Source: Natronoarchaeum mannanilyticum (GTDB lineage Archaea; Halobacteriota; Halobacteria; Halobacteriales; Natronoarchaeaceae). From it: DNA of 64,000 bases. Below the pieces are notes generated by a model. It saw nothing but the letters and a program-made list of their open reading frames with translations, did no database searches and was not told where the DNA came from. Below are positions 19,920-41,021 of the stretch, piece after piece (within the stretch, counting starts at the first letter, position 1; each line of letters opens with the position of its first letter). The stretch is taken from positions 124,001 through 188,000 of the forward strand of contig NZ_BAAADV010000007.1 of the NCBI RefSeq assembly GCF_039522665.1. Reading direction: 5' to 3'. Position numbers and translations under genes: made by a program.

Positions 19920-20075
19920 TCAGAGCAGGTCTCGCGGCGAAGCTGCCCCGGCGTCCTGTAGCTCTGAATCGAACGTAACGAGGTCGGCATTCAGGACGCT
20001 TGCTGCGACTGGTCCCGTTTCGGGCTCGTCGGTTACAGCAGCCACGAGAACGTTCGTGTCGAGAAACAATCTCAT
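19920..20075 (-). pseudogene. Internally deleted VapC (PIN-domain) toxin remnant
   Basis: Encodes only 51 residues. The first part, MRLFLDTNVLVAAVTDE, is the exact N-terminus of a PIN nuclease, with the first catalytic aspartate in LDTNVL. The last part, DLVTFDSELQDAG, matches the C-terminal strand of the same family. A full PIN domain is about 130 residues, so the middle, with the remaining acidic metal ligands, is missing although the frame is kept. It should be inactive as an RNase. It overlaps the upstream antitoxin gene by four bases (ATGA), as in intact vapBC operons. Confidence 0.7.
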
Positions 20076-20224
20076 GTCCGATCGCGTAGTTCGCGGACCT
20101 CTTCGACCGAATCGACGTCAAGTTCCGCCGCCATCCCCCGGAGTCGATCACCGAGTGGTTCCCGATCTTCGTCGCCCTCGTCCGAACCGACGAACTCGGA
20201 TACGTCGCTGACGTAGACGCCCAT
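20072..20224 (-). CDS. vapB: VapB-like antitoxin (50 aa)
   Basis: A 50-residue acidic protein: MGVYVSDVSEFVGS, then a charged helical stretch ending VEEVRELRDRT. Size, charge, and position directly before and overlapping a PIN-domain gene mark it as the antitoxin of a vapBC pair. The frame is intact while its toxin partner is collapsed. A TATA-like TTTTTATCG lies about 25-30 bases upstream on this strand, so the message would be leaderless. The fold is not clear enough to assign an antitoxin class. Confidence 0.6.
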   Translation of the reverse strand: MGVYVSDVSEFVGSDEGDEDREPLGDRLRGMAAELDVDSVEEVRELRDRT

Positions 20225-20258
20225 ATCCTCGGAGACGGACGCCACCGATAAAAACAGT

Positions 20259-20275
20259 CCGCCGACAGTCGGCGG
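20259..20275. promoter_or_regulatory. Perfect 17-base palindrome upstream of the vapB TATA element
   Basis: The sequence ccgccgac-a-gtcggcgg is a perfect inverted repeat with 8-base arms. It lies immediately upstream of the TATA-like element of the vapB-like gene, where the archaeal BRE would be. Toxin-antitoxin operons are usually autorepressed through such palindromes, so an operator is a reasonable inference. It also happens to mark the start of the AT-rich patch. Confidence 0.45.
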
Positions 20276-20513
20276 TTGTGATCAAGGACAGCACCACAAG
20301 CGTCAGCAGGACTTGGTAATCGGAGGCATCTTGAACGATCGGCTCGGCAACCAGTAGTGGTAATGATGATTGTAATTTCTGATGGCTAAATACAAATATT
20401 ATTCAGTCATGGATTGAATTTGAGGATGGCTCATATTATACACACCAATTATTAATACTCTAATATTTTTCAAACCAATAATTATATCTGATGGCAATAT
20501 CTACCAATAATGG
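20276..20513. other. AT-rich gene-free stretch at island edge, with promoter of the protease gene
   Basis: Composition changes sharply to AT-rich here. No ORF, tRNA or IS end is recognisable. Near 20481-20490, ATTATATCTG is a TATA-like element about 28 bases before the ATG at 20514, again implying a leaderless transcript. The abrupt change suggests that the following two genes were acquired. Confidence 0.5.
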
Positions 20514-21599
20514 ATGTCAGATAGTGACCATTCATCACGGCGCAGATTCCTTCAAGGAACCACCGTAGCAGCAAGTAGCCTATTCGGTGTAGGTCAAGTG
20601 TACGGAAAAAATATAGGACAACCCGATGAAATAGACATTCCAGTAGTTGTGTCTGGAGACAAAGTAGTGGAGACGGCTACTGTTCCATTCAAATGGTGGC
20701 AGCACGAACAGAGAGTAATCCGTCTTCAAGAGCAGCTTGTTGACCGGCTTGGCGATACTCCAGGCATTGTGAGTGTTGGAGTCGGTACACAATCCAGTAC
20801 AATCGGTGGAAAGAAAGTTAGCCATCTTCGGGTTGGACGTGATTCGGAGGCCGACATTTCTACAAATATGCCAACCCGTGTAGATGGTATTCCAGTTGAA
20901 GTTCATTCTCCAGAAAAAACTGAACTACATTCCTGTGACGATAGCTGGGATGATACAAACACCTATGACCCTGTCGAAGGCGGTGTAAGACTTGATGGGT
21001 CACACTCATCATGTTGTGCAGTTCGGTACACAAACGATGATGGGGAAATTCTGAACTGTCTTATGACTGATGGACACTCCTATGATTGCTCCTTCGAATC
21101 GATAGACGACACAGTTGAACAGGAAGGCCAGAAAATTGGCGAGATCGAGGAAATTCGGCCAGCTCAGGACTGGGCCATTATTCGATTGACCAATGATGCT
21201 GACATTTCTTTTTTCTCGAATAATATTGCAGGCAGTTCACCTAAAGCGAGCGGTTATGTGTCACAACACGGACTACATCAGTTAAAGAGCAATGATACAA
21301 AAGTTTTTAATAGAGGCGCAAAAACCACGCTCACAAATGGCACTATAACTGGTTATGATAAGCAGCTTCCGTACACATCTGGATGCGAGGGATCAAATGA
21401 CTATGAAAACTACGTTCGGTTGACTACCTGTACATTTGGTGGAGACTCCGGAAGTATCCACTACCATGAATATACCAATTACAGAGGAGATAAAAGGGCA
21501 GCAGTCATCGCGCCGCATAAGGGTGGCGGGGACGATTATTCAGTTGGATGTGCAGCGTATCGAATTAGAGAATCCAATGATATTGAATTCGGAGAATAA
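20514..21599 (+). CDS. Tat-exported trypsin-like serine protease
   Basis: A 361-residue protein with a twin-arginine leader (SSRRRFLQG, then a hydrophobic stretch to about residue 26). Residues 80-130 (GIVSVGVG ... TRVDGIPVEV) resemble the small domain that precedes the catalytic domain in several secreted bacterial and archaeal S1-type proteases. The chymotrypsin-fold triad is visible: His188 in TDGHSYD, Asp219 in AQDWAIIRL, Ser312 in GGDSGS. Eight or more cysteines in the mature part may form disulfides outside the cell. The gene is AT-rich compared with flanking DNA and sits 42 bases before a lipoprotein gene, possibly in one unit. Substrate unknown. Confidence 0.72.
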   Translation: MSDSDHSSRRRFLQGTTVAASSLFGVGQVYGKNIGQPDEIDIPVVVSGDKVVETATVPFKWWQHEQRVIRLQEQLVDRLGDTPGIVSVGVGTQSSTIGGKKVSHLRVGRDSEADISTNMPTRVDGIPVEVHSPEKTELHSCDDSWDDTNTYDPVEGGVRLDGSHSSCCAVRYTNDDGEILNCLMTDGHSYDCSFESIDDTVEQEGQKIGEIEEIRPAQDWAIIRLTNDADISFFSNNIAGSSPKASGYVSQHGLHQLKSNDTKVFNRGAKTTLTNGTITGYDKQLPYTSGCEGSNDYENYVRLTTCTFGGDSGSIHYHEYTNYRGDKRAAVIAPHKGGGDDYSVGCAAYRIRESNDIEFGE

Positions 21600-21641
21600 T
21601 CATATAATTATGCATTATAATACATACAATAGTTTATAAAT

Positions 21642-22334
21642 ATGGCAGAGAGATCACGAAGGAAAATCCTTCACCAAGGTAGTCTTATTGGAACTATGCT
21701 TCTCATGGGCTGTAGTAGAAATACTGACTCACCCAACTCCAGCAACAATGCCTCACCTATCGGTTCCTGTGGCGAAAGCCAAATCTTTGACCCTCCAAAA
21801 GAAGCCTCTAATCCAGAAGGGGGTTATCCGGTAGTCACTACATCGGTGTCCACATCAACCAATACCGGAAAGATCGGCGCAGCATCTCGATGCATTCGGT
21901 CATTTTCATCTTCGTCACCAGCTCGAATCTGGATAGCATTAGCGAACCTCGGCGACGATCCGATCACGCTGGGATTCGGTGCACATCAGCCCTTGACGCG
22001 GTACGCAGCTGAACACAGAACCGCTGATTTTTCAATCTACGTTGTTCCATCAAGGTTCGAGAACGAAGGGAAACATCATTCAAACGGGAATGACACTACA
22101 AGTGATCAAAACTTCGGGTGCTGGAAGCTTGATGAGTGGGGATACGATAGCGAGGTGAACAATGTCACGCTGGACCCGTGCGAAATCATCAAGGGGACCT
22201 ACGCACTCTTCGCATCTGCTGGCAACGGTGGTTGTCTAATCGACGGAACCTATCGAGTCGATGAGAACCTTAGTGGGCCTAACGGTCAGGTGGAGGCGAG
22301 TCTCTCGCTGAGCGTCTCCGTAGACCACGGCTGA
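21642..22334 (+). CDS. Lipoprotein with a beta-sandwich-like domain; partner of the protease?
   Basis: A 230-residue exported protein. The leader has SRRKIL and a hydrophobic run ending in the lipobox LMGCS, so Cys24 is probably lipid-anchored outside the membrane. A Ser/Asn-rich linker is followed by a beta-rich domain (about 80-230) with the motifs [27 protein letters not shown] and DGTYRV. The same ordered motifs occur in the signal-less protein at 61469-61984 (LFIIPPEYEEN, DGCWRAHTR, VTIDPGE, SGTYEF), so the two are homologous. The overall pattern recalls small protease-inhibitor sandwiches of the BsuPI type, but this is a weak resemblance. AT-rich like the protease gene before it; TATA-like sequence about 25-30 bases upstream. 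Confidence 0.6.
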
Positions 22335-22344
22335 GCGTTCGACA

Positions 22345-22361
22345 AGTCTCTCAATTTTTGT
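22345..22361 (+). terminator. Possible T-rich terminator after the lipoprotein gene
   Basis: The sequence tctctcaatttttgtct, eleven bases after the lipoprotein stop, has a run of five T with flanking pyrimidines, the typical archaeal termination signal. It also marks the return to GC-rich DNA. Confidence 0.35.
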
Positions 22362-31748: not shown

Positions 31749-33119
31749 ATGGAGCGGTACGACGTGGCCGTCGTCGGTGGCGGTCCCGCGGGGACGTGTG
31801 CCGGCTGGGAGGCCGCCAAGGGCGGCGCCAGCGCGGTGGTACTGGAGAAGGGCGTCCCCCGCGAGGATCGCGACGGACTCGGTCCGGACTCGACGGACGC
31901 AGCGGGGATGCTCGACTACTGGGTCGACATCATGGACATCGACTACGAGCGCATCCCCGACGAGGCGATCCTCCGGGAGCTGTCGGGCACGGACTTCGTC
32001 GGCCCGAACGAGTCCGTCTCGCTCGACACCACCGGGATGGCGTCGAGCTACGACGGGTTCGGGTTCACGTTCCAGCGCGCCCGGATGGACGACTGGCTCC
32101 GCGAGGAAGCCGAGAGCGCGGGCGCCGACTACCGCGTCGGCGTCAGCGTCACCGACGTGGAGACCGACCTCTCGGGCGACCCGCGCCACGTCCTCGGTCT
32201 GCGCGACGGCGAGGACATCGGCGCGAAGTATCTCGTGCTCGCGGACGGCCCCCAGCGCCAGGTCACCAATCGCGTGCTCGATCGGTTCCTGCCCGACGAC
32301 GCCGACGTCACCGACTACGTCGGGACGACCCACGCCAACCACATCGCCTATCAGGAACACCGCGAGGTGCCAGAGGACGTGTTCGAGGACGACCGACTCA
32401 AGTTCTGGTGGGGGTACATGCCCGGCGAAACGGCCTACCCCTGGGTGTTCCCGAACGACGGCAACGTCGCCCGCATCGGGCTGACGATGCCGATCGGGAT
32501 GGACATCGACGAGGTCGAGAACCGCGATGACTACGCCCTGCTGGAGCCCGAGGACGACGGCATCCCGTCGGGAAGCGAGTACATCCGACGCCTGCTAGAA
32601 CGCGAGTACGGGGACCGGTACGACATCGAGGAAGACTTCCCGCTCGTCGAGGATCGCGGCAAGCGCGGCGGCACCGAGACGTACGCCATCTCCTCGACGC
32701 GCCCGATCGACTCGCCGACCCGCGCCGGCATCGCGGTCGCCGGCGGCGCGATGGGTACGACTTCGGCGTTCCACGAGGGCGGCTACCACGTCGCCGTTCG
32801 ATCGGGGCGGATCGCCGGCGAACTCGCCGCCAACGACGAGCTCCGGCGCTACAACGACGCCTGGAAGGACGCCATCGGCGACGAGCTCCTGCGGAACGTC
32901 ACGTTCGCGGACATCGTCGCGGAGTACGGCCCGGCGGACTGGGACCGGACTTTCGGCGTCGCCAACGACCTGCTCGCGCCCGAAGACGATCGGCTGCTGC
33001 GCTGGCAGCTCCGGTCGGGACTCGCGGGGCTGAAGGTCGTCGGCGAGTACAAGTGGCGGAAGTTCGGCTACCGGGACGGCAAATACGTCCAGCTCCGGGA
33101 GTCCGAGTACCAGCTGTAG
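31749..33119 (+). CDS. Geranylgeranyl reductase-family flavoprotein
   Basis: A 456-residue FAD protein. VAVVGGGPAGTCAGWEAAK is the N-terminal FAD site; FQRARMDDWLREEAE is the conserved second contact, and GIAVAGGAMGTTSAFHEGGYH the third. Members saturate the isoprenoid chains of archaeal lipids or quinones. It is longer than the ~400-residue digeranylgeranylglycerophospholipid reductases, so menaquinone or carotenoid side chains are possible targets. The start is supported by a TATA-like CATTAATATC about 28 bases upstream. Confidence 0.82.
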   Translation: MERYDVAVVGGGPAGTCAGWEAAKGGASAVVLEKGVPREDRDGLGPDSTDAAGMLDYWVDIMDIDYERIPDEAILRELSGTDFVGPNESVSLDTTGMASSYDGFGFTFQRARMDDWLREEAESAGADYRVGVSVTDVETDLSGDPRHVLGLRDGEDIGAKYLVLADGPQRQVTNRVLDRFLPDDADVTDYVGTTHANHIAYQEHREVPEDVFEDDRLKFWWGYMPGETAYPWVFPNDGNVARIGLTMPIGMDIDEVENRDDYALLEPEDDGIPSGSEYIRRLLEREYGDRYDIEEDFPLVEDRGKRGGTETYAISSTRPIDSPTRAGIAVAGGAMGTTSAFHEGGYHVAVRSGRIAGELAANDELRRYNDAWKDAIGDELLRNVTFADIVAEYGPADWDRTFGVANDLLAPEDDRLLRWQLRSGLAGLKVVGEYKWRKFGYRDGKYVQLRESEYQL

Positions 33120-33131
33120 GCGTCGATCGAG

Positions 33132-33344
33132 ATGCGGGCCACCACGCTGACGAAACTGGTCGGCCTGTCCGCGATCCTGGTGGTCGGCGGCTTCGTGACG
33201 ATGGGGTTTTCGCGGCTCGCGATCGGCTACGATCTCGCGCGAACGCTCGCGGCGCCGCTGTTTCTCTCGGGCTTTGCGATCGCGGTCGGCCTGTTCGCGT
33301 TCGGCGTGCTCTGGAAACTCGGCGTCGTCGCGATCGAGGAGTGA
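33132..33344 (+). CDS. Small two-helix membrane protein (70 aa)
   Basis: Seventy residues with two hydrophobic helices (about 8-25 and 41-64) joined by SRLAIGYDLARTL. It starts twelve bases after the flavoprotein gene, so the two are probably co-transcribed. It may anchor or assist the reductase at the membrane, but nothing in the sequence proves it. No family recognised. Confidence 0.6.
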   Translation: MRATTLTKLVGLSAILVVGGFVTMGFSRLAIGYDLARTLAAPLFLSGFAIAVGLFAFGVLWKLGVVAIEE

Positions 33345-33696
33345 CGCCGAAGTGGCGGTAACGACGCCGTCGGTGCTCGTGGCGACGCCCTTTTTTGGCC
33401 CCCTCGCCTACGTCCGACTGCGTACCTCAGTCCCCGCCCGAGCACGTCCGCCAGGACGCGATGACAGCGCGGAGAACCCGGGTGCGCGACACGCAGTTGC
33501 TGACCTGGTCGAGCGTCGCTCGACCCGCCCGGCACGAGGGTTTCCCGGTTGACAGGGCCTGCCGCCCGCGGATGATACCGGTCGTTAGTGTTCCGGGCGA
33601 CAACCACTCATTTACCGGTATAAAATCGCGTATCCCGGCTTCTATTGGCCGTATACGGCACAATTCGTTTATAACCAAAATGAGCTGAGTATCGGG
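33345..33696. other. Gene-free boundary region of the second island, with two palindromes and a promoter
   Basis: No convincing ORF. A perfect 19-base palindrome (ggtcgagcg-t-cgctcgacc) lies at 33507-33525 and may be a terminator hairpin or an operator. A 10-base palindrome, ccgtatacgg, is at 33649-33658. Composition shifts to AT-richer after about 33560. GTTTATAACC at 33667-33676 is a strong TATA-like element whose expected start point falls at 33697. Confidence 0.5.
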
Positions 33697-33756
33697 ATGA
33701 ATACTAACGACATTATCGATAATCTCAGGAGGTGCGTGTTCGATGCCTCCGCGTGA
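33697..33756 (+). CDS. Putative leaderless 19-codon upstream ORF
   Basis: ATG at 33697 opens a 19-residue frame (MNTNDIIDNLRRCVFDASA) that ends at 33754-33756, inside the start of the next gene (33743), in another frame. The TATA element centred at about 33671 puts the transcription start on this ATG, so the short ORF would be leaderless. The Shine-Dalgarno sequence of the next gene (aggaggtg, 33727-33734) lies within it. A leader peptide giving translational coupling or control is therefore plausible. No peptide evidence. Confidence 0.4.
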   Translation: MNTNDIIDNLRRCVFDASA

Positions 33757-34333
33757 TTACGATGATCGCCGGGTAGAAGTCTACTTCGGGCCGTCACACA
33801 AGGTTGACGTGACAAAGGAGGAGCTGGCTGAGTTCATCATCGAGGAGATGGCTCTCGAACGGTCAGATGGTGGGCCAAAGTGGACCGAAGGTGTGGCCGA
33901 GCTCGTCGAACTCGGGATGGAAGCCTTTGAGGAACAATATGGAGATGATCCAGAGTATGCGGAGGAGATCGCGAAGCTGAACCAGAAGCTCGATGAGTAC
34001 CAGAGCGAGATCAGAGAGATTTCGATTTCCCAGGAGGAGCCAGTTGACACTCTCATTCAAGCATCTAAACTAACCAGGCGTGCCCAAGCTCGTATCCTCA
34101 AAGTCTTGTCCGAAAATGCGAGAGAGGACGATGGGATGTCGCTGTTTGTCGATTTAGCGGAAGTAGCCAGAGAGGCGGATATGGAGTATAGTGCTGTTTC
34201 GCACTACACTCGTTTACTTGATCTGGGTGGGTTCGTTGATCGAGACACATACGGACAAAAGGCAAAACTGAACCATAGAAATGCATTTGAGAAATTTTGT
34301 GAGACAAGAATGGTCAACCCTGAGTCAATTTAA
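33743..34333 (+). CDS. Putative DNA-binding protein with C-terminal winged helix, unknown
   Basis: A 196-residue protein. The N-terminal 55 residues (RRVEVYFGPSHKVDVTKEEL, then an amphipathic helix) are unlike anything I know. The middle (about 68-100) is a charged helical stretch, perhaps coiled coil. Residues 110-196 look like a winged helix: ARILKVLSENA, then LAEVAREADMEYSAVSHYTR as the helix-turn-helix and GFVDRDTYGQ as the wing. A rare strong Shine-Dalgarno (aggaggtg) lies nine bases before the ATG, unlike most genes here. Codon usage is AT-richer. Convergent with the next gene (19-base gap). Likely a regulator for the island. Confidence 0.6.
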   Translation: MPPRDYDDRRVEVYFGPSHKVDVTKEELAEFIIEEMALERSDGGPKWTEGVAELVELGMEAFEEQYGDDPEYAEEIAKLNQKLDEYQSEIREISISQEEPVDTLIQASKLTRRAQARILKVLSENAREDDGMSLFVDLAEVAREADMEYSAVSHYTRLLDLGGFVDRDTYGQKAKLNHRNAFEKFCETRMVNPESI

Positions 34334-34352
34334 ACTGAATTGAGGTAGTTCC

Positions 34353-35744
34353 TTAGTCTTGAAAAAGCCCGGAGAGTAGTCTTTTTACATTATCCACTCT
34401 TGACAGAACGTTTGTGGTTGTCTCAGTCAGGTCATCATCAAATTGAATGATGTTGTCTTCGGTAGAGATGATGTCTATCACATCCTCTGTTGTCAGTTCA
34501 TTCCGCTCGTAAGCACACAGCATTTTGTAAAGCTCAACTGTTGTTAGTAACTTGAATCCCCTTTCATCAAGTTCATCAGTGAAGTTTTCAGTATTCAGAC
34601 GACGATCCTCCGGATCGCTCTTACGATCATGATTGACGATCAGTAGCCCAGTTCGATTTGTCCCATAGCCTTCACTCTCGGCGTCACTGAGATGACGATC
34701 AAGTTGGGAAATTTTCCCGTGGCTGACTCCCCCATCTGTTCCTGTTATCTCAAGAATATACGTTTCCGAATCAAGCGGAATTCCGCCATCACGGTGGCCA
34801 GATTTCTCTGGGTCTACACTTAATCCCATATGTCGAAGTACTCCCCTTACTGTGTCTTCAAGTGAATCTCCTGTGTCAAATAGGATCGTACGAAACTCTC
34901 TTGAGTTTCTTATTGTATCTTCAAGTGATGAAATCTGACTCTCAATATCGTTGATCTCCTGTTCTACCTTGTTATGATTGGGTAGTTCATAACTGTCAAC
35001 CCATCCCGGAACAGAGTCAAGATCAAATTCAAATAGGTGAGTTAGTGTCTGTCTGACAAAACCATCAAAGTCTTGGCTTTTCTTTTCTGGAACGAGGTAT
35101 ACCGCACCGGGCGAAACTTGGTCCTCGCTCTCATCTATTAGGCGGACCTCAGCGGCAATAGCACGGTTGACATTGTCCACGGCGATTCGCCAAAAATCAA
35201 AGTGTGGACCATACTCTCCCTTAGTCGGACTTCTCAGTGCTTTTGGCCCCCCTTTTCTCGGTCGAGGGTCAAGATATGGGTCCCAAGTAAATGTTTGTAG
35301 TTGTCCGATGTCATTGATTACAATTTCCCAATTAAATTGGTTCCCGAAATACCAATCCCACTCATCATCAACAAGCTCAATCAAGTCACCATTTTCGTCA
35401 TCACTGGCATCTATTCCAAATGGGAGCCATGAGAGTAGGTTTGCTTGATACTTCTCATCGTTCCCGTCGTGGTCTTCTCCTTTGAAATACGGTGAAAGTT
35501 CCTCAGGTAGTCTGATTACGACGTCATTCCCCGCCCCGATAAATTGAACAAGATCACGCCGGTCCGGGAATGTCACTGATTCTTCCCAGCCAAAGTAGGG
35601 GTGGGCAAATTCATGAGCATGTAACTGAAGATCCATCAGGTCGATGAACGCATGTGTATGATTTTTAATATTATCTGATTCGTCCCAATCGACATGTGTG
35701 TCAGCTATGGAGCAATCAGGGCCCTTGACCAGAATCCGTCTCAT
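34353..35744 (-). CDS. Large unknown protein with coiled coil and PD-(D/E)XK nuclease-like domain
   Basis: A 463-residue cytoplasmic protein. Residues 1-80 (MRRILVKGPDCSIADTHVDW; DLVQFIGAGNDVVIRLP) resemble an alpha/beta nucleotide- or amidotransferase-like N-domain. A middle region to 255 is unassigned. Residues 256-281 form a heptad-like coiled coil. Residues 284-410 have the order expected for a PD-(D/E)XK nuclease: helix with SLEDTVRGVLRHMGL (Glu296), Asp319 in HRDGGIP, Glu332 in YILEITG, and Gln347 in KISQLDRHL. The usual lysine after the Glu is replaced by Thr (EIT), so cleavage may be altered or lost. AT-rich and foreign-looking. Nuclease-like domains in accessory islands often serve defence; unproven here. 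Confidence 0.6.
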   Translation of the reverse strand: MRRILVKGPDCSIADTHVDWDESDNIKNHTHAFIDLMDLQLHAHEFAHPYFGWEESVTFPDRRDLVQFIGAGNDVVIRLPEELSPYFKGEDHDGNDEKYQANLLSWLPFGIDASDDENGDLIELVDDEWDWYFGNQFNWEIVINDIGQLQTFTWDPYLDPRPRKGGPKALRSPTKGEYGPHFDFWRIAVDNVNRAIAAEVRLIDESEDQVSPGAVYLVPEKKSQDFDGFVRQTLTHLFEFDLDSVPGWVDSYELPNHNKVEQEINDIESQISSLEDTIRNSREFRTILFDTGDSLEDTVRGVLRHMGLSVDPEKSGHRDGGIPLDSETYILEITGTDGGVSHGKISQLDRHLSDAESEGYGTNRTGLLIVNHDRKSDPEDRRLNTENFTDELDERGFKLLTTVELYKMLCAYERNELTTEDVIDIISTEDNIIQFDDDLTETTTNVLSRVDNVKRLLSGLFQD

Positions 35745-35850
35745 TACTATAATTCTGTCTCGTGAATTTGCTTAGTCGTTTGGTCATATCGACAGGTGTC
35801 GGGTTTGTGGGCGTAAATCATTATAGCGGCAAATCCAGCAAAACGACTGT

Positions 35851-36387
35851 CTATCGGGGTGATTTAATACCGACACGTCGACCCAACCAGCCAGTCACGG
35901 CGGCCACTACGGCGGCGATAAGAAAGCCACTGGCCAGCATACTTGCAAGTAATCCCCCTTCAAGTAACATTTCTCTTGTAATCAGAGGAGGAGAAACGGT
36001 ATATGCATAAGCAAGTGAGGCTATCGGAACAAGAACCAAGGCTACTATCCCAACACCAAGACCGACCAGTAACAACTGAACGCTGGTACGATCTCGAGCG
36101 AAACGAAGAAGTGGATACTGAGCGGTAATCGGTTCCCTTACATCCTGTTTGAGCCACCAGAGTCGATCTCGTCCAGGCTTTCGAGTCCCCAGAATATCTC
36201 GGCTCGCAAGGTCTTTCAGTCGTCTACGTACCTGTCGGTCGCTCAAATCGACTCTCTCAGATACTTCCGTCGTTAGAAGGACTTGGTGCTCCGCATACGA
36301 GAACGCATCAATAATCGGTTTGTCCTGTGTTTTTAGACTCGCATCAAGATCAGATATGGCCTCAGAATCCTCACTTTCCAAGCTCAT
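35851..36387 (-). CDS. Membrane-anchored winged-helix protein
   Basis: A 178-residue protein. Residues 24-80 are a winged helix (FSYAEHQVLLTTEVSERVDL, then SDRQVRRRLKDLASRDIL and a wing with GRDRLWWLK). Two membrane helices follow (about 104-128 and 143-166), with a short basic tail. The DNA-binding part would face the cytoplasm, so it could sense a membrane or outside signal and act directly at a promoter. The ATG at 36387 is chosen over a GTG at 36411. It is divergent from the TraB-like gene, with 118 bases between starts that hold repeated sequences. Confidence 0.65.
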   Translation of the reverse strand: MSLESEDSEAISDLDASLKTQDKPIIDAFSYAEHQVLLTTEVSERVDLSDRQVRRRLKDLASRDILGTRKPGRDRLWWLKQDVREPITAQYPLLRFARDRTSVQLLLVGLGVGIVALVLVPIASLAYAYTVSPPLITREMLLEGGLLASMLASGFLIAAVVAAVTGWLGRRVGIKSPR

Positions 36388-36505
36388 TGGTCGATGTCCC
36401 CTTGCGGACACTGGCTCTGTCCGGTTACAGACACAGATTTTGGATGTCTTTTTGCGGTCATCCTCTTGCCCCTATAATTCCCTGGCACGTCAGTTAACAT
36501 ACGCA
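36388..36505. promoter_or_regulatory. Divergent promoter with an 18-base direct repeat
   Basis: Two copies of an 18-base element, gatgtcCCCttgcggAca (36393-36410) and gatgtcTTTttgcggTca (36443-36460), match at 14 of 18 positions and are exactly 50 bases apart. Between them cggaca and tgtccg form a short inverted repeat. A TATA-like CTATAATTC at about 36471-36479 lies 27-31 bases before the TraB-like ATG. The spacing, about five turns of the helix, suits a regulator binding on one face, perhaps the winged-helix protein encoded beside it. Confidence 0.45.
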
Positions 36506-37297
36506 ATGAGTCGAGCCACTGTCAAAAAGACTGGCACGATCGAGGAGGATAGTAGTACAGAATCAGAGTCAGTAGTCCACCTGAAAGGGGAGATTCACAG
36601 TAGTCGCGGAGACCACGACAAAGAACGGGAGTTGATGAAGGATGGTATTGATGCTCTCGTTTTGGAAGGAACAGAGAACACTGGCGACTATGGGGTTACT
36701 GAGGGCTGGTTCCAACAGGCGATAGCGGGGATGTTCTATATTCTGAGCCCACTCTATGTTTCGAAGGAAATTCTCGTCGACTTCGCTGAGCTACAAGGTG
36801 CTAATGTGTACTTCACGCGGGAGAGTGACGCGGAGGTACTACGGAATGCCCCCTTAACGATGAGAGTGATTTCCGCCTCGTTGTATTTCCTTCTCCTACC
36901 GAGTAGCGTGATTGTCGGACTAATAACGGGGGACTATCTCGCTGGTGCTGGTTTCTTGGCCGTGAGCTTCTCTGTGCCGGTTCTTCTTCTCAGGTTCTAC
37001 AATATGGAGTTCAACTCAGGCGATCAGAATCGGGACGAGGTTATGGCTCAGAAAATCGCTGATGCGGCTGAGGAGAATGATACGGTACTTGCGGTTGTCG
37101 GAGCGGGGCATGCTGATGGTATAATTGACGCGCTACCGAAAACCCTGAACGTAACCTATCATCCGCCGGAATACGGTAGAGCATCCAAGGAGCATCTCAA
37201 AGAGATTCTCATTCCATTGTTCCAGACGTTCTCTCTCCTCCTAACTCTCTATCTGGCCATTCTTTGGATCATCGTGACTCTTGTCGGTTTCCTCTGA
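36506..37297 (+). CDS. TraB/PrgY-like membrane protein
   Basis: A 263-residue protein. The N-terminal segment SVVHLKGEIHSSRGDHDKER followed by DALVLEGTEN, and the later NRDEVMAQKIADAAEEN with LAVVGAGHADGI, are the two conserved halves of the TraB/PrgY/GumN fold, with the histidine and glutamate of a presumed metal-dependent protease-like site. Two membrane helices (about 119-163) lie between the halves and one more is at the C-terminus (239-262). PrgY-type proteins dampen peptide pheromones in enterococci; archaeal roles are unknown. The ATG at 36506 fits the TATA element; the long frame upstream is not coding. Confidence 0.7.
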   Translation: MSRATVKKTGTIEEDSSTESESVVHLKGEIHSSRGDHDKERELMKDGIDALVLEGTENTGDYGVTEGWFQQAIAGMFYILSPLYVSKEILVDFAELQGANVYFTRESDAEVLRNAPLTMRVISASLYFLLLPSSVIVGLITGDYLAGAGFLAVSFSVPVLLLRFYNMEFNSGDQNRDEVMAQKIADAAEENDTVLAVVGAGHADGIIDALPKTLNVTYHPPEYGRASKEHLKEILIPLFQTFSLLLTLYLAILWIIVTLVGFL

Positions 37298-37600
37298 CCA
37301 ACCCAAGAACGAGCTCTTGAAACATAATTAAAATGTTGTATCGTGGATTGGAGGGTTGATCGATTATTTGTATGAATCCTGTGTATGGCATATTGTGCGC
37401 CAACTACCAGAATTTTGGTATTTATCGATAATAGAGGATAATCCCGGGCGATACACTTTCACATAATACTCACAAGAGCGCGGATCGGCTCGAGTGCGGA
37501 GTCTCACCTGATGCTATCCCATCGTAACCGCGTCATTTCGGAGCAAAAAACTGCGCAGGCGGCACAGAGTAGTCGACGCTTCGTTGTGCTTCTCACCCGC
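37298..37600. other. Gene-free stretch, right edge of the island
   Basis: About 300 bases. The left half is AT-rich (near 37320-37440) without an ORF of protein-like composition; the right half returns to mixed composition. I see no tRNA, direct repeat matching the left edge, or IS end. Confidence 0.4.
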
Positions 37601-38638
37601 TCAGGAGTTTGGATCGAACGGATTCGGGAGCTTGGTGTCGGCCCCCTGATCCACGATCAGTTCGTCGAATCCCGAGACGTCGTTGCCGATCAGTTTAGTG
37701 TTCTCCGCGGACGAGTACACGAGGATGCCAATGTCCCCGTCAGTAGCGGAAATCGTGTTCTGCCGGACACCGGTGTTCTCAGTATCTAGCACGAGGACTC
37801 CGTAGTGGGCGACGCCGTTCTCGCCGGGATCGGCCTCGCTGACCTCGACAGCGTTGTGGATCGCATTGTGCCTGTCGCCGCCCCACAGGGCGATGCCGGC
37901 GTCGTTGTTTCTAACCTCGTTTCGCTGGATGTTGATGCTGTCCCCTGGCTGATAGAGGATGATCCCGGATGACTGAAAGTTATCCAAGTCCCACCAGTGG
38001 TCTTCGACGGTGTTGTCGCGCACGTCTCCGGTCGCATCGCCGCTAATTTGGATCCCGTTCTCGGCCCATCCGTCGGATTTTGGGCCCAGGCCGGTTACGT
38101 CGTTGCTCCGTATCGAGATGTCCGTTCCGCTCCCCTCAGCGAGAATTCCGACTCGGTGGCCTCCGTTCAGTGTATTGTCTTCGGCCCGACCGGTAGCACC
38201 GTCGGCGACGCCTATTGATAGGAACTGTTTGCCGAGTGCATCGTCCCCGTCCACGGTGTTCGACCTCACGTCAACGTCACCACCCTCAACTCTGATTCCG
38301 AACGTCGGACTCTCTGGAACCTCGTCGACTGAGATCTCGTTGTTCGAGATCTCGCCGTCGTAGCCGTCGTTGTAGATGATGTACGCACCCTCTCCGCCAT
38401 CGTAACCGACTCCATTATCGACTGTAATCTCCTGGTCGGAGATCACGAAACCGTCGTCGGTTGCGACGATAGCGCCGCTACCTGTCTCTTCGGCGTTGAC
38501 AAGCCCTCCGTCACCGTTTCCTCTCCCGTTACCGTTGCTGTTCCCCCGGCCGTTCCCGTTCTGCACGGCGGACCCCGTTCCGAGCGTTCCGAACCCGGCG
38601 AGGCCGACGGCCGTGCCGACGAACGTTCTACGATTCAT
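37601..38638 (-). CDS. Tat-exported right-handed beta-helix protein
   Basis: A 345-residue protein. It starts MNRRTFVGTAVGLAGFG, a twin-arginine signal, then an Asn/Gly-rich linker (GNGRGNSNGNGRGNGDGG). From residue 60 on, the sequence repeats the parallel beta-helix pattern with asparagine ladders: ISNNEISV, VRSNTVDG, AEDNTLNG, IRSNDVTG, VRDNTVED, IQRNEVRN, VRQNTISA, LIGNDVSG, each about 23-35 residues apart. Proteins of this NosD-like shape often bind or cut polysaccharides. No catalytic residues can be named. Probably surface-attached or secreted. Confidence 0.75.
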   Translation of the reverse strand: MNRRTFVGTAVGLAGFGTLGTGSAVQNGNGRGNSNGNGRGNGDGGLVNAEETGSGAIVATDDGFVISDQEITVDNGVGYDGGEGAYIIYNDGYDGEISNNEISVDEVPESPTFGIRVEGGDVDVRSNTVDGDDALGKQFLSIGVADGATGRAEDNTLNGGHRVGILAEGSGTDISIRSNDVTGLGPKSDGWAENGIQISGDATGDVRDNTVEDHWWDLDNFQSSGIILYQPGDSINIQRNEVRNNDAGIALWGGDRHNAIHNAVEVSEADPGENGVAHYGVLVLDTENTGVRQNTISATDGDIGILVYSSAENTKLIGNDVSGFDELIVDQGADTKLPNPFDPNS

Positions 38639-38891
38639 GGTATTTTCGACGAGTGCATATACCACGGCGACTGATCGGCTGAAGTAATTAGTTGCTAGTC
38701 ATGTTTGTAATATACTACAGGCTGAGGCGTTTCCATCGCTTTATGAATATTCCAAGACGTTTGTCGGCCGGCTTCAGTCCGTTGACGGCTGGCAGCAGGT
38801 GATCTCACTAGTTACGGCCGGTTGCATTCGGAAAGAGACGACAGAAGTGAGGCGCCGCACGTGGCCGTCGAACGAGAAGTATCGAGGGCGC
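38639..38891. other. Intergenic region between the beta-helix gene and katG
   Basis: About 250 bases. It holds the promoter of the beta-helix gene (GGTATATGCAC near 38653-38663 or CTAATTACTTC near 38690, read leftward). No other gene is seen. Confidence 0.35.

Positions 38892-41021
<2,130 letters not shown>

Follow-up and report, generated by a model that had tools for sequence, protein, structure and literature searches.

A probable remnant integrative element at the 3' end of an H/ACA-type RNA gene in Natronoarchaeum mannanilyticum, and cassette arrays at the same RNA end in other haloarchaea

The locus

The present analysis concerns an AT-rich gene island of the haloarchaeon Natronoarchaeum mannanilyticum, located in a stretch of 64,000 nucleotides (contig NZ_BAAADV010000007.1, positions 124,001 to 188,000) that is called the window hereafter and whose coordinates are used throughout. 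The island carries four protein-coding genes designated A to D, and it abuts, from position 33603, the 3' end of a conserved non-coding RNA gene (Table 1). We estimate at about 0.8 the probability that it is the remnant of an integrative element inserted at this RNA end, with A as the former companion of a tyrosine integrase and the other three genes as cargo, and that the same RNA end serves as a general acceptor of foreign DNA in haloarchaea.

A first-pass annotation of the sequence had delineated an AT-richer island of four genes at 33345-37600 and interpreted it as a candidate defence or stress unit or, alternatively, as unrelated cargo of one transfer event. The composition and the four genes are borne out: the GC content is 0.68-0.69 at 32001-33500, drops to 0.44-0.50 at 33501-37500 and is again 0.67 by 39-40 kb, in flanks of 65-70% GC. 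The island itself is real and its bounds had been drawn too wide, its extent being ~33603-37455 (~3.85 kb) with the RNA gene at 33425-33602 lying outside. An open reading frame (ORF) reported in front of the winged-helix gene corresponds to 19 codons that are kept in one of two relatives.

Table 1. Features of the island and its flanks. G030, G179, G313 and G375 are other genomes used for comparison; TM, transmembrane.
Feature	Positions	Strand	Remarks
FAD-dependent oxidoreductase (geranylgeranyl-reductase-like), native left flank	31749..33119	+	Syntenic beside the RNA gene in congener G179, G030 and G313
Small membrane protein, native left flank	33132..33344	+	Syntenic in G179
Conserved non-coding RNA gene, H/ACA-type, attB host gene	33425..33602	+	Matches in 192/194 haloarchaeal genomes
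attL core TAGTGTTCCGGGCGACA, 3' end of the RNA gene	33586..33602	+	Homology with the G030 island begins here; G030 has four direct copies of this 14-mer
19-codon ORF overlapping the start of A	33697..33756	+	Kept in G030; start codon lost in G375
A: coiled coil and winged helix, probable integrase partner	33743..34333	+	Relatives at the same RNA end
B: undescribed family, coiled coil, PD-(D/E)xK-like invariants D319 and E332; probable nuclease, exchangeable cargo	34353..35744	-	15-member alignment
C: winged helix and two TM segments	35851..36411	-	HTH_24, E 0.02; 87-94% identical in G030 and G313; divergent neighbour of D
D: TraB-like membrane protein	36506..37297	+	TIGR00261, 7e-7; PF01963, 1e-4
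attR-like imperfect copy TAATCCCGGGCGATACA	37439..37455	+	Homology with G030 stops at 37458; G030 equivalent TAATCCGGGGCGTACATTTC
E: Tat-signal right-handed beta-helix protein	37601..38665	-	PF13229, 2e-13
katG, native right flank	38892..41018	-	In congener G179 it follows the RNA gene, past a 0.86-kb PIN gene pair

The RNA gene at the left edge

The RNA gene, which we take to be the one named sR-h45, was recovered with a 126-base query in nearly every haloarchaeal genome, almost always as a single match. Its second hairpin (~33521-33602) terminates in GGGCGACA, which contains an ANA box. In 27 aligned sequences this hairpin is built of a basal stem (7 bp), a pocket, an apical stem (5 bp) and a terminal stem; over 15 pairs, 99% of the cells are paired and six pairs change on both sides, a covariation equalled by none of 500 shuffles. 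ACA or ATA stands 0-1 nt past the basal stem in all 27, and a K-turn-like GA...GATGA is near-invariant. Judged from the alignment, this anatomy is that of an archaeal H/ACA guide RNA. Two H/ACA hairpins, HP1 and HP2, have been described in Haloferax and other haloarchaea as predicted guides of rRNA pseudouridylation (PMC2584109), and we infer that the gene bordering the island is this RNA. A tRNA or an Rfam-listed RNA was also considered as the target; none is present in this region of the window, and the target RNA itself has no Rfam match at the threshold used.

Island ends and comparison with relatives

Both limits of the island are copies of the last bases of the RNA gene. Genome G030, from another family, also has A, C and D at this RNA (70%, 87% and 94%, respectively), with the gene order unchanged, and its DNA homology with the window spans 33586-37458, that is, the interval between the two att-like sites; B is replaced there by ~0.4 kb. 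Four copies of the 14-mer TAGTGTTCCGGGCG, all directly oriented, delimit small toxin-antitoxin-type segments between the RNA and A in this genome. In the congener G179 the flanks are conserved (FAD gene, membrane protein, RNA, katG) and the island is absent; the gene pair found instead includes a PIN match (3e-11).

Two further genomes hold parts of the same assemblage. In G313 a single stretch of 93% identity, interrupted by assembly gaps, holds C together with parts of B and D. An apparent truncation of B in this genome was discarded as non-biological, the cut falling on a run of N; unrelated pieces of the assembly are connected by short N runs here (L102, G313:C1:52000-68000), and apparent gene truncations at this locus are artefacts. 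In G375, relics of A and C surround a different two-gene unit near a tRNA-Arg gene (L118, 7726-11133), of which one product, a 469-aa protein, has a D...DAKF stretch and may be another nuclease. Because of the comparisons with G030, G313 and G375, we read A and C-D as travelling together, with an exchangeable slot between A and C.

Gene A and its link to tyrosine integrases

Relatives of A start 50-150 bp past the 3' end of the RNA in genomes G279, G316, G313 and G145, and in the first three they are followed by a tyrosine-recombinase gene (int), broken in G316 and G313. In G279 the A and int genes overlap by 4 nt, and the predicted integrase matches PF00589 (2e-21) and PF13495 (5e-8). This element is complete: it extends over 21.3 kb from TGTTCCGGGCGACATTT at the RNA end to an identical 17-bp direct copy at contig position 33.2 kb. 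The GC content is 0.69 ahead of the element, mostly 0.5-0.6 within it and 0.72 past its far end. Three large genes within it resemble a type I restriction system by eye. Since its relatives occupy the same RNA end and have a tyrosine-recombinase gene next to them in three genomes, A is probably the partner of a tyrosine integrase that the window island has lost.

Elements inserted at tRNA 3' ends by tyrosine integrases, such as archaeal SNJ2, pNOB8 and other families, offer a close comparison, and the integrase IntSNJ2 has two boosting helpers encoded in the int operon, one a coiled-coil protein and the other MarR-like (PMC8371274). The resemblance lies in the insertion at the restored 3' end of an RNA gene, in the recombinase domains (PF13495 with PF00589) and in helpers featuring a coiled coil and a winged helix. 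The present elements differ in that the target is an H/ACA-type guide-RNA gene, the coiled coil and winged helix are united in one protein, and the integrase has probably been lost from the window; the operon of integrase and coiled-coil/winged-helix partner is found in G279, not in the window. By analogy A may act as an integrase helper. The likeness of the G279 integrase to that of SNJ2 concerns its domains and its helper.

Profile searches of the four island proteins (Pfam, NCBIfam, PADLOC) yielded weak hints only: winged helix and coiled coil for A, HTH_24 for C, TraB for D and none for B. Matches of A and C to Csa3/CARF (E 0.01-0.03) were dropped. Single-sequence AlphaFold models (pLDDT 46 for A, 34 for B) were too poor for a fold search, a profile search of the PDB with A and B returned chance matches only, and viral contigs contained no relatives of A, of the integrase or of the cassette tail described below.

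The cargo genes B, C and D

The family of B comprises at least 15 proteins, from haloarchaea, Fusobacterium and Streptomyces. In B a coiled coil is predicted around residues 257-280, followed by a C-terminal domain in which D319 and E332 are invariant in 15/15 members, spaced as in PD-(D/E)xK nucleases. The motif is ExK in the Fusobacterium, Streptomyces and Halobaculum members and ExT, with threonine for lysine, in the remainder. From these residues B is a probable PD-(D/E)xK nuclease. It has no match in Pfam, NCBIfam or PADLOC. Apart from the window and G313, B is found alone in about a dozen other genomes, AT-rich even among neighbours that are not, and several copies lie near recombinase-like genes (by eye).

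An initial count placed C in 194 of 391 genomes and was set aside, most of these being short generic winged-helix matches; full-length relatives exist in ~7 genomes. Relatives of D occur in 22/391 genomes, ~20 of which have neither A nor B, and are present on haloarchaeal plasmids. The C-terminal GxGH stretch of D matches that of the TraB/PrgY family, whereas its scores stay under both curated cut-offs (TIGR00261, 28.5 bits vs 178; PF01963, 22.6 vs 26.8) and no conjugative-system partner genes accompany it. A winged-helix/two-TM gene stands divergently beside D relatives twice more, on a Haloarcula plasmid and in G037 (L031, 4187-5717, and L132), in the arrangement seen for C. The C-D couple is thus a possible recurring pair of haloarchaeal plasmids and elements.

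Cassette arrays at the same RNA end

The use of this RNA end was surveyed in 60 genomes drawn from the list of RNA hits regardless of what follows the gene. In 12 of them a fixed tail, TCACTTCCACCGAGCCTACTAGTAGATTCTCGCCCGGTAGTG followed by TTCCGGGCGTACATTTC, is repeated downstream of the RNA and marks off serial cassettes of ~0.8 kb, each of which closes with the conserved core CGCCCGG-TAGTGT(T/C)-NCGGGCG. Halopenitus malekzadehii and Halomicroarcula sp. SYNS111 are array carriers. Each host's 3'-terminal RNA 14-mer (at most one mismatch) has 24 copies downstream of the gene in 13/60 genomes, whereas neither the upstream side nor the opposite strand holds any. When 84,980 species genomes were scanned for the tail pattern, 38 stretches emerged, all in Halobacteria; 33 of them share a contig and an orientation with the RNA and are located downstream of it, and five are on other or broken contigs. 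One tail, on Halorientalis regularis scaffold 6 (L278), is on a scaffold other than that of the RNA and possibly marks a secondary acceptor. At L271 (~2469, tail on the + strand), the CTACTAGTAG motif stands immediately past the RNA 3' end (GGGCGACAATCTACTAGTAG) and is perhaps an inverted or partial cassette end.

In silico excision gave 71 cassettes, most of 0.65-2 kb. Whole cassettes are common to different genera at different positions, as illustrated by 760/760 bp at 97.4% between G030 and G069. Recurrent genes are Fic/Doc, PemK-like with a winged-helix partner, DUF5615 with DUF433, DUF3368/PIN-type, HicA and DUF7387, families that suggest a mostly toxin-antitoxin-type content.

The arms of the core are inverted (at least 5/7) in 74 of 79 tails, around the 7-bp spacer TAGTGT(T/C), and inverted arms with a spacer are the usual plan of a tyrosine-recombinase site. 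In 53/62 tails the two bases past TAGTGT equal those of the host RNA, against a mean of 28.9 and a maximum of 41 over 10,000 shufflings, and the match holds even for near-identical cassettes residing in hosts with different RNA ends. A crossover inside TAGTGT would lead one to expect this very agreement. A motif search and a tblastn comparison using one Int query detected no recombinase gene within or next to the arrays. The integrase of the A-Int elements was examined as the maker of the arrays and rejected: at E 1e-10 no relative of the G279 integrase is detected in any of the 12 array-bearing survey genomes, which makes another recombinase likely.

The arrays recall several features of pdif modules of Acinetobacter plasmids, which are acted on by XerC/XerD in trans, are small, often encode toxin-antitoxin pairs and are bounded by short cores in which a short spacer separates two inverted arms. 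The arrays differ from them in being chromosomal, in using one fixed acceptor within an RNA gene and in a core unlike dif.

A model of insertion and the points that weigh against it

According to the reading that we favour, site-specific recombination would place an element into the 3' end of the RNA gene, the 3' end being restored in the process. The window island would be a 3.85-kb remnant of such an element, from which the tyrosine integrase has since disappeared, leaving its partner A. B, a probable nuclease, would fill the replaceable position flanked by A and C. Further cargo would be the divergent C-D pair, a membrane-anchored regulator and a TraB-like protein. The RNA end would be a general haloarchaeal acceptor that also gathers strings of small cassettes. 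For these, the crossover would take place inside TAGTGT, catalysed by a recombinase probably encoded elsewhere, and the incoming circle would bring a new RNA 3' end while the old one is moved to the far side of the cassette. We consider it reasonably probable that the arrays represent a haloarchaeal integron-like mode of gene capture unrelated to IntI/attC, with the RNA 3' end as fixed acceptor, circular cassettes ending in a CTACTAGTAG...CGCCCGG-TAGTGT(T/C)-NCGGGCG tail, a recombinase acting in trans and displacement of the host end, and that the larger A-Int elements enter at the same place. The sequences directly document the site, the island ends, the contrast with the congener, the linkage of A to int, the build of the arrays and the dependence of the tails on the host; the chemistry of the crossover, the helper function of A, nuclease activity in B, the part played by C-D and the source of the recombinase are deduced.

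Several observations weigh against this interpretation. The end repeats of the window are imperfect (TGTTCCGGGCGA and AATCCCGGGCGA) and the exact core that they share is short (CCGGGCGA). The window island has no integrase gene, and its A protein is only 33-35% identical to those of the A-Int elements. The cassette arrays and the A-type island have the acceptor site in common and not the CTACTAGTAG tail, and may use different recombinases. No structure model of B is good enough to back the nuclease reading (single-sequence pLDDT 34), and the RNA is equated with the H/ACA RNA published for haloarchaea by structure and description rather than by sequence comparison.

Alternative explanations

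In a coherent defence or stress module, the kind of unit that the first-pass annotation had suggested, the nuclease B, the regulators A and C and the membrane protein D would act jointly against viruses or plasmids. The expectation that the genes co-occur elsewhere held, A, C and D being together in G030, B, C and D in G313, and relics of A and C in G375; side-by-side occurrence in other haloarchaeal genomes is therefore documented for G030 and G313. The nuclease-like invariants of B, the toxin-antitoxin-type cassettes nearby and the three type I restriction-like genes (by eye) of the G279 element also speak for defence. The genes are nevertheless not obligate partners: B is missing from the A-C-D island of G030 and stands alone elsewhere, each gene has its own phyletic pattern, and A is linked to integrases. 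The annotation's remark that no known system matches the set agrees with the PADLOC models, which gave no match (best E ~0.01 for the window proteins, 0.0013 for one of the 15 B-family members). We attribute the side-by-side occurrence to shared mobility at one integration site and regard a joint module as unlikely, while B may nonetheless be a defence nuclease that works alone. The annotation's other suggestion, cargo of a single transfer event, agrees with the shared mobility at one site. A is best explained as an integrase partner rather than as a defence gene.

That the arrays, and hence the site, constitute a true integron with an IntI integrase is very improbable. The two share a single acceptor, serial small cassettes (~0.8 kb here), one-sided recombination sites, a content rich in toxin-antitoxin-type genes and cassettes common to several genomes. 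The arrays depart from integrons, including the archaeal ones (PMC9668308), in having neither IntI nor attC motifs, a short core with inverted arms, a conserved RNA 3' end as acceptor and an unlinked recombinase. The motifs GTTRRRY and RYYYAAC occur together in 0/79 tails, the searches for a neighbouring integrase given above were negative, and the archaeal integrons of that study were not reported from Halobacteria. A random pile-up of unrelated AT-rich genes between katG and the FAD gene, by insertion and homologous recombination with no specific site, would accommodate the imperfect repeats as well as the additional foreign DNA seen in gene E and a second AT-rich stretch, and is strongly disfavoured, as homology stops exactly at both repeat copies and as G279, G316, G313, G145 and many array genomes have their insertions at this very RNA end.

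Implications

Insertion at the RNA end, the reading retained here, would explain the position and the ends of the island and gives A a testable role. The RNA end would then be a widespread and unrecognised acceptor of foreign genes in haloarchaea. No earlier description of RNA-end elements or arrays was found in the open-access literature searched, subscription papers and preprints lying outside this search, and an acceptor for strings of cassettes at the end of a guide-RNA gene seems undescribed so far. Should the arrays be confirmed, Halobacteria would own an integron-like store of toxin-antitoxin-type genes inside a gene thought to guide ribosome modification. This raises the questions of which recombinase moves the cassettes, whether pseudouridylation changes when the RNA 3' end is exchanged and whether the arrays give protection from viruses.

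Neighbouring genes and a second AT-rich stretch

Gene E is a fifth AT-richer accessory gene. Because it is located between the right end of the island and katG and is missing in eight relatives of the family, it is a separate accessory gene and not part of the island. The composition of the island is far off that of the rest of the window, where only one similar stretch exists, at 20.0-22.4 kb. The latter (20000-22350, GC ~0.45-0.50) encodes a Tat-signal secreted protein, protease-like by eye (20514-21599, + strand), and a lipoprotein-like gene (21642-22334, + strand).

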